Assembly (NCBI GenBank): GCA_903933015.1
Contig: CAIZIQ010000021.1
Coordinates: 1-38,728 of the forward strand
DNA length: 38,728 bases
Direction of reading: 5' to 3'
Origin: an uncultured Spartobacteria bacterium
Lineage (GTDB): Bacteria; Verrucomicrobiota; Verrucomicrobiia; Chthoniobacterales; UBA6821
Under the pieces are notes generated by a model. It was not told the DNA's origin. It made no database searches and saw only the letters and a list, made by a program, of their open reading frames with translations. This document shows, one piece after another, positions 20,229 to 21,501 of this stretch. Position numbers and translations under genes: made by a program. How positions within the stretch are numbered: position 1 is the first letter of the stretch; each line of letters begins with the position of its first letter.

Positions 20229-20660
20229 TCACAGACCGCGAAGCGCGGCCTTTAAAATCTCCTCCTGCCGGGCATGCATGATCACCCTCTCTTTTTTGCT
20301 CAGGTCATCGTAGCCGAGCAGATGGAGCAGACCATGGATCGCACAGAGGGCCACCTCGTGGTCGGCGGGATGACGAAACTTCTTGGCATTAGCCGCCGCG
20401 ATCGGAACCCCAATCAGGATCTCACCATGCTCGAAGGTGATCACATCGGTCGGCGTCGGATCCTCCAGGAACTCCCCGTGCACCTTGGCGATCGCCGCCT
20501 CACCCAGCAGCGTGATCTCAACCTCGGATGGAAGCTCCAGCCCCTTCTTCCTCGGCTTCTCCAGACACATAGGCAACGCCACTTCCACAATCCGCCGGAT
20601 CTTCGGCAGATCGACCTTCACCGCCCGCTGACGGTTGGCCCAAGTGAGAATGGGGAGCAT
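20229..20660 (-). CDS. ybeY: endoribonuclease YbeY (rRNA maturation)
   Basis: PTDVITFEHGEILI...HEVALCAIHGLLHLLGYDDLSKKE (HGLLHLLGYDD metal motif). Confidence 0.93.
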   Translation of the reverse strand: MLPILTWANRQRAVKVDLPKIRRIVEVALPMCLEKPRKKGLELPSEVEITLLGEAAIAKVHGEFLEDPTPTDVITFEHGEILIGVPIAAANAKKFRHPADHEVALCAIHGLLHLLGYDDLSKKERVIMHARQEEILKAALRGL

Positions 20661-20686
20661 TAGAGGATTTGAATATGGAACTCAGG

Positions 20687-21071
20687 AACTCAGGAAGGGG
20701 AAAAAAGAAGAATATCGCGCAGAGGCGCAGGGGCGCAGAGAAGAATTCCAAGGAGAAGGCTGTTAAGGCTGAAGACAACCAAGCTTGTGGGTACAAGCGC
20801 GGAAGACTGACGAAGTCAGCCCCGAAGGGGTGGCACTGTCCGCCGAGAGGCGGATGCCATCAATTAGGCTGTTAGGAAGGCAAGAACCAAGCGATTGGGA
20901 CCGCCGAGTGCTGGGAGGCACGGCGTAGCCTGTGCGATAGCACAGCCCGGTAGGGCGAGGTGAGCGGGAGCGAACGAGGCAAGTCGCTCGGAAGACCGTG
21001 ACAGAGTCGCAACCCGCGGGGCGGCACCGCTTGCCGGGAGGCAAGTGCCGTCAACTCAGGAAGGGGAAAAA
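20687..21071. repeat. non-coding hairpin-rich element bounded by exact 19-bp direct repeats
   Basis: AACTCAGGAAGGGGAAAAA at 20687-20705 and 21053-21071; bulged GNRA hairpins at 20831-20859, 20902-20925 and 21022-21050; further hairpins GCTTGT-GGGT-ACAAGC, CTGAC-GAA-GTCAG, CCCC-GAA-GGGG, CTGTGC-GATA-GCACAG, GCCC-GGTA-GGGC. Confidence 0.85.
20717..20740. repeat. tandem octamer GCGCAGRG x3
   Basis: GCGCAGAG GCGCAGGG GCGCAGAG; degenerate relative at ~21927-21951 (GCGCGGAG GGGCAGAG AACGCAGAGG). Confidence 0.8.
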
Positions 21072-21171: not shown

Positions 21172-21501
21172 TTGAAGGATGCGATCATACTTTTCTCGGC
21201 CATCTCATTTTTGGCTTACGGGTTGGGCTGTTTTACTTCCCAGCACCTTAAAAAGGAGTTTGTGCGCTTCGGATTCTCCGCTCAGCGCGGGCTGATCGGT
21301 TTGCTTCAGATCTGCGGAGCCCTCGGAGTGATTGCAGGGCTATGGTTTCCCCTTCTTGGGAAGGCGGGGGCAGGAGGACTTGCCGTGATGATGTTTGTCG
21401 GGATCCTGGTGCGCATCAAAATCCGCGACAGCCTGCTTAAGACCATGCCGGCGGTTCTCTACTTTCTGGTGAACACCTACCTGGCGCTCTTCGCCTACTA
21501 G
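21172..21501 (+). CDS. DoxX-like small membrane protein
   Basis: LKKEFVRFGF...LLQICGALGVIAGLWFPLLGKAGAGGLAVMMFVGILVRIKIRD; similar to the convergent neighbour. Confidence 0.75.
   Translation: MKDAIILFSAISFLAYGLGCFTSQHLKKEFVRFGFSAQRGLIGLLQICGALGVIAGLWFPLLGKAGAGGLAVMMFVGILVRIKIRDSLLKTMPAVLYFLVNTYLALFAY

Follow-up and report, generated by a model that had tools for sequence, protein, structure and literature searches.

The intergenic interval at positions 20687-21071 holds two copies of a sharply defined family of dispersed hairpins, called type 1 here, which is previously undescribed in the open-licence literature that we searched and is absent from Rfam. Its copies share a covarying structure and sharp ends, lie between genes, are present or absent at corresponding sites of related genomes and are found inserted in other repeats, and one of the two carries a unit of a second family (type 2) nested inside it. 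We lean toward the view that type 1 is a non-autonomous mobile hairpin family of the REP/IS200-IS605 kind and that the interval served as an intergenic landing zone where such repeats accumulated. The window is the whole stretch of 38,728 nucleotides that was analyzed, from an uncultured Spartobacteria bacterium.

Composition of the interval and the ybeY site

On the left of the interval is ybeY (20229-20660, minus strand), assigned by matches to PF02130 and TIGR00043; on its right is a DoxX-like gene (21172-21501, plus strand). A first-pass annotation of the sequence had described it as a hairpin-packed element without a convincing open reading frame (ORF), bounded by exact 19-bp direct repeats. 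Both copies of the 19-mer AACTCAGGAAGGGGAAAAA are present, at 20687-20705 and 21053-21071, with a start-to-start spacing of 366. The space between them is as densely folded as claimed, with -143 kcal/mol for the plus strand against -130 +/- 4.9 in shuffles (z of -2.66) and a z of -3.25 for the minus strand, and its base pairs are backed by covariation as well as by energy. The intergenic setting agrees with the claim about coding content, except that a mechanical ORF list has two short minus-strand frames with TTG starts touching the interval (20518-20796 and 20763-21044); the second, of 93 amino acids and spanning the hairpin units, we take as spurious. The first-pass annotation had not recognized tmRNA, RNase P RNA, SRP RNA, 6S RNA, or a known REP/BIME class; the Rfam scan that it proposed gave no family above the gathering threshold, and the sole match of a permissive scan, RsmY, scored 13 bits where the threshold is 57, which we take as chance.

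The interval is a mosaic of two type-1 units, one type-2 unit and several simple repeats, all given here on the plus strand. The left 19-mer falls within repeat A, a common and dispersed sequence (AATATGGAACTCAGGAACTCAGGAAGG) that stands here as GAATATGGAACTCAGGAACTCAGGAAGGGG (20671-20704), contains the 8-mer AACTCAGG twice and has many further copies in the genome. Next comes repeat B (20716-20741), CGCGCAGAGGCGCAGGGGCGCAGAGA, also written CGCAGAGGCGCAGGGGCGCAGAG, a dispersed purine-rich intergenic repeat with many copies (for example, on contigs C10, C153, C169, and C251). An 8-mer array of the CTGTTAGG type, repeat E, is the target of type-1 unit 1, which splits it into a left part (20758-20776) and a right part, TTAGGCTGTTAGGAAGG (20864-20880). 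Unit 1 itself (20777-20863; 87.8 bits with the covariance model R1 described below) has the layout AACCAAG, H1 (loop GGGT), GCGCGGAAGA, H2 (loop GAA), H3 (CCCCGAAGGGG), H4 (3-nt bulge, loop GAGA), and TCAA. Unit 2 (20885-21054) starts with the family left end and the 5' arm of H1, AACCAAGCGATTGGGA (20885-20900), which pairs with 20984-20988 (AGCGA/TCGCT); the two arms are kept apart by a type-2 hairpin unit in the H1 loop (20901-20982, left boundary approximate). The remainder, with the 3' arm of H1, H2 to H4 and the end GTGCCGTCAA (20983-21054), scores 52.5 bits with R1, and we read the type-2 unit as nested in unit 2 because both flanking halves match the type-1 consensus. Abutting unit 2 is half of repeat A, CTCAGGAAGGGGAAAAA (21055-21071). 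The right 19-mer is made of this half and of the terminal AA of unit 2 (21053-21054), which doubles as the end of the hairpin unit (...GTCAA), and the arrangement of the repeat A 8-mer against a unit end recurs at several other loci, on contig G000:C82 and in other genomes. Three contigs, G000:C52, C322, and C255 (L010, L012, and L021), have nearly the same coding end, and next to it repeat A is arranged as a long palindrome (GGAACTCAGGAACTCAGGAA...TGAGTTCCTGAGTTCCATATT).

Type-2 copies, stand-alone or independently placed, occur in most congeners at 78 to 91% identity. A type-2 unit sits in a type-1 loop both in the window and in genome G014, where a type-1 left end runs into it. The converse, type-1 units inside type-2 units, is seen at L106, L145, L155, L171, and L175; the junctions are identical in several genomes, so such composites may be mobile, or inherited, as single units. 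On G000:C169 (L018), a copy of CCATCAACTAAAGTTGATGGAGCCGGCA stands on each side of a type-2-like unit at about 1430-1610, and one of these copies is at the end of a putative tRNA gene.

The history of the interval can be followed at the ybeY site of related genomes, which is filled in three species and elsewhere empty or occupied by a bare 8-mer repeat. G003 and G014 have unit 1 upstream of ybeY, inside the same 8-mer repeat, with neither of the 19-mers, nor repeat B, unit 2, or type 2. In G015, the 8-mer repeat is present without the unit (...GGCTGAAGAC-TG-TTAGGCTGTTAGG), G010 and G011 retain no more than short pieces of it, and none of the parts of the interval was found at this site in G001, G002, G004, G005, G009, or G012. 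As unit 1 occurs at the orthologous site without the 19-mers, these were not formed by insertion of the interval, and the differences between congeners indicate that the block was built stepwise. The earlier reading, in which one element of 347 nt was inserted and duplicated 19 bp of its target site, has in its favor the exact 19-mers at both ends; with the 19-mer a fragment of a common repeat, the full block lacking any other copy in its own genome, and the orthologous ybeY loci contradicting it, it keeps hardly any probability. The suggested search for further copies succeeded for the separate pieces (dozens of partial matches) and failed for the whole. What survives of the first-pass proposal is a non-autonomous, mobile, structured, and non-coding element with many copies and with sites in relatives that lack the unit.

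Structure and distribution of type 1

Type-1 units are 85 to 91 nt long (87 nt in unit 1), start with (G)AACCAAG, end with GTCAA, and contain four stem-loops. The covariance model R1, built from five genomic copies where the first-pass annotation had advised using all, recovers both window copies and reveals the dispersed family in the genome (23 matches at E up to 1, about 20 copies) and, among the 97 genomes scanned, in 14 of the 15 congeners, with 2 to at least 44 copies each. Beyond the genus, it matched weakly in three of the six sister-genus genomes, and the rest of the order gave isolated matches. The exact right-end pattern, searched across 85,462 species, was restricted to freshwater Spartobacteria/Chthoniobacterales bins and one record labeled Proteobacteria, which we take to be misnamed. 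No type-1 match was found in the plasmid and phage sequences searched, so we rejected an origin from either. Six extra genome loci with the exact right-end motif, considered as a possible autonomous parent, were ordinary coding DNA matched by chance.

Among 117 copies, 24 of the 29 base pairs change on both sides, with 484 double changes, and pairing holds in 97.4% of cells. With the partners shifted against each other, the share falls to 37 to 46%, a wide margin even though fitting the alignment to the structure favors pairing. The hairpins at the two ends, H1 and H4, covary in all six H1 pairs and all six upper H4 pairs. Regarding folding as RNA or as DNA, the count of wobbles by strand gave 66 G-U cells (2.2% of type-1 pairs) and 23 A-C cells. 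Of about 57 copies that could be classified with a home-made codon-bias gene caller, one overlaps a called gene, in DNA that is 73% coding, and the orientation relative to neighboring genes is mixed. G001 has a tandem cluster of three type-1 matches (one of them weak) where its congeners have none.

Insertion sites and candidate movers

When the flanks of the copies are aligned, conservation stops before AACC (after a G) on the left and directly after TCAA on the right, save for a 7-nt rhythm that arises because many copies sit in heptamer arrays (GAAACCT, GAATTAT, GGGTCGA, GGAGCTA, and others). Insertions were found in (AACTCAGG)n, in heptamer arrays, and in type-2 units, and the boundaries are identical in contexts as unrelated as type-2 units and repeat A. 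The clearest gain is syntenic, G012 reading CCAAGTG/AACCAAG...GTTCAA/GCTG (slashes mark the boundaries) where G004 has CCAAGCGAAGCTG (CCAAGCG-AA-GCTG): 87 nt gained outside any array, with no duplication beyond an ambiguous AA. The empty-site search that had been recommended thus yielded a site lacking the unit, in G004, while at the ybeY locus it led to relatives holding unit 1 without the 19-mers; for G012:C67, synteny was too broken to show further empty sites. Of 108 copies, 16 have exact repeats of at least 5 nt across the junction, compared with a rate of 2.1% when the flanks are shuffled, and 14 have them at offset 5 or 6, where about 2 would be expected by chance. These repeats fit insertion into 7- or 8-nt arrays, with the AA of the element replacing two bases, and in several arrays AG, GG, or TG appears to have been replaced by AA in this way. 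A 5-bp target-site duplication was rejected, as the cross-junction repeats agree with the 7- and 8-nt host arrays and the clean gain in G012 has none. Intergenic arrays in the flanks of many loci (e.g., L099, L114, and L144) have many different heptamers with a common G(A/G)(A/G) step, and their origin may be connected with hairpin units that insert and excise.

Y1 transposases were found in only 2 of the 16 genomes of the genus, IS110 transposases in 3 of them (the genome of the window has none), and TnpB in none, and the latter two were rejected as resident movers. The Y1 proteins of G007 are RAYT-like, yet below the curated NCBIfam cutoff. One of their genes (L180:1465-2523, on G007:C33) has inverted ends, GGGGTCAGTGT/ACACTGACCCC, lies in a heptamer array, and is immediately preceded by a truncated left end of type 1, GAACCAAGCCGCTG, found on the upstream side only, a link to type 1 that is suggestive but a single case. 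A second RAYT-like gene (L178:1462-2400, on G007:C70) has a repeated AAAAGGGGTCGG upstream and ATGACCGACCCCTTTT downstream, with no type-1 unit in the surrounding 3.3 kb. No complete type-1 unit was present within about 1.5 kb of any Y1 gene found, and no autonomous copy with type-1 ends was seen. Given this census of enzymes and the single RAYT link, the mechanism of movement is something we infer. Type 1 may move as single-stranded DNA in folded form, with a Y1/HUH-type enzyme reading the left and the right hairpin in trans, as in IS200/IS605 and REP/REPIN, and would insert after a GAA-like site without target-site duplication; an excised circle, if formed, would carry the junction GTCAACCAAG. 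As the enzyme is missing today from most genomes, most type-1 copies would now be immobile.

Strong covariation would also be expected if type 1 were mainly a functional structured RNA or a regulatory DNA site under selection, with dispersal secondary or ancient, and some copies are indeed well conserved. At the prmA-pyrD site, where a type-1 unit is common to five species, the unit is 90% identical between G004 and G001, against 76 to 79% in coding DNA and 40 to 53% in the near flanks; several pairs show the unit exceeding the adjacent genes, and at ybeY the G000-G003 pair does likewise (93% against 84%). These conserved copies, like those of the window, lie between divergent genes. However, not every pair has such an excess (G004 and G002 share 82% in both the unit and coding DNA), and gene conversion or hot-spot re-insertion could give the same pattern as selection. 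The range of copy numbers among congeners, the tandem and nested copies, the lack of a fixed orientation to genes, and a G-U share that is low for RNA also speak against a primarily functional site, which we regard as doubtful. We would be similarly hesitant to propose a genus-wide set of multi-hairpin units with a machinery unlike that of REPs, targeting heptanucleotide arrays and sibling hairpins, of which some were co-opted in divergent promoters.

The remaining alternatives concern how the units spread. Passive dispersal, by recombination or gene conversion between 7- to 8-nt tandem arrays and with no dedicated transposase, would account for the excess of cross-junction repeats at offset 5 or 6, for type-1 subfamilies that retain the same array type, and for the rarity of transposases; the clean gain of G012 relative to G004 outside arrays and the same boundaries in type-2 units and repeat A make it improbable. 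Another recombinase (IS110-type, serine, or integron-type) moving circular hairpin units through a 2-bp AA core seems more improbable still, with IS110 as scarce as it is in the genus and absent here, although AA flanks nearly every copy on both sides and the two-base replacement would suit it. That replacement is not predicted by IS200/IS605 insertion and so counts against the REP/IS200-IS605-like family that we prefer.

Comparison with known repeats

Type 1 is most likely closest to the non-autonomous elements of the REP and IS200-IS605 kinds, though it departs from them in several of the characters by which they are recognized. With the MITEs of DD(E/D) transposons, it shares a small, non-coding, dispersed, and intergenic nature, but its ends (AACCAAG/GTCAA) are not inverted repeats and no target-site duplication of fixed length is seen at G012/G004. 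The host arrays of many copies are 7-nt intergenic direct repeats like STRR-like repeats and the TAACTGA repeats of Beggiatoaceae (PMC4679880), differing from these in having many different heptamers, whose common G(A/G)(A/G) step keeps the phase of the insertion point.

IS608, which carries hairpins close to both ends, inserts 3' of its target without target duplication and has TCAA as its right cleavage site (PMC5934647). Type 1 also carries hairpins close to both ends, of which the right one is bulged, and ends in TCAA on the right. At the clean gain it was inserted 3' of a short motif (GAA) without long duplication; other sites suggest that two target bases were replaced. In contrast to IS200/IS605 elements, type 1 has no tnpA or tnpB, no autonomous parent was found, and the transposase is missing from most host genomes; its target is GAA-like rather than the TTAC of IS608.

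REPs and REPINs are palindromes tagged with GTAG or CGTC, known also from the PVC superphylum, and the CGTC REPs have no dedicated transposase (PMC3733652, PMC3116915). Type 1 resembles them in being short, extragenic, and palindromic, with many copies in one lineage and tandem clusters, and the CGTC REPs in lacking a dedicated transposase. Many copies have CGTC at the 3' foot of H4 (others have CATC, CTGTC, or further variants), and the unit ends two bases past this tetranucleotide, at TCAA. REPs and REPINs are single 20- to 40-bp palindromes or head-to-head pairs, whereas type 1 has four different stem-loops over its 85 to 91 nt, in fixed order and one orientation, with constant AACCAAG/TCAA ends and a seat in heptamer arrays; no cognate RAYT is flanked by type 1, the one with a truncated left end upstream being the nearest case. 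Type 1 adds to the small mobile repeats of bacteria a well-defined and strongly covarying element of four hairpins, and it does so in a phylum with few described examples. Its apparent lack of a resident transposase, together with orthologous copies in up to five species, makes it possible to test for orphan palindromic repeats what is also asked of the CGTC REPs: whether they are relics, hitchhikers on foreign enzymes, or domesticated sites.
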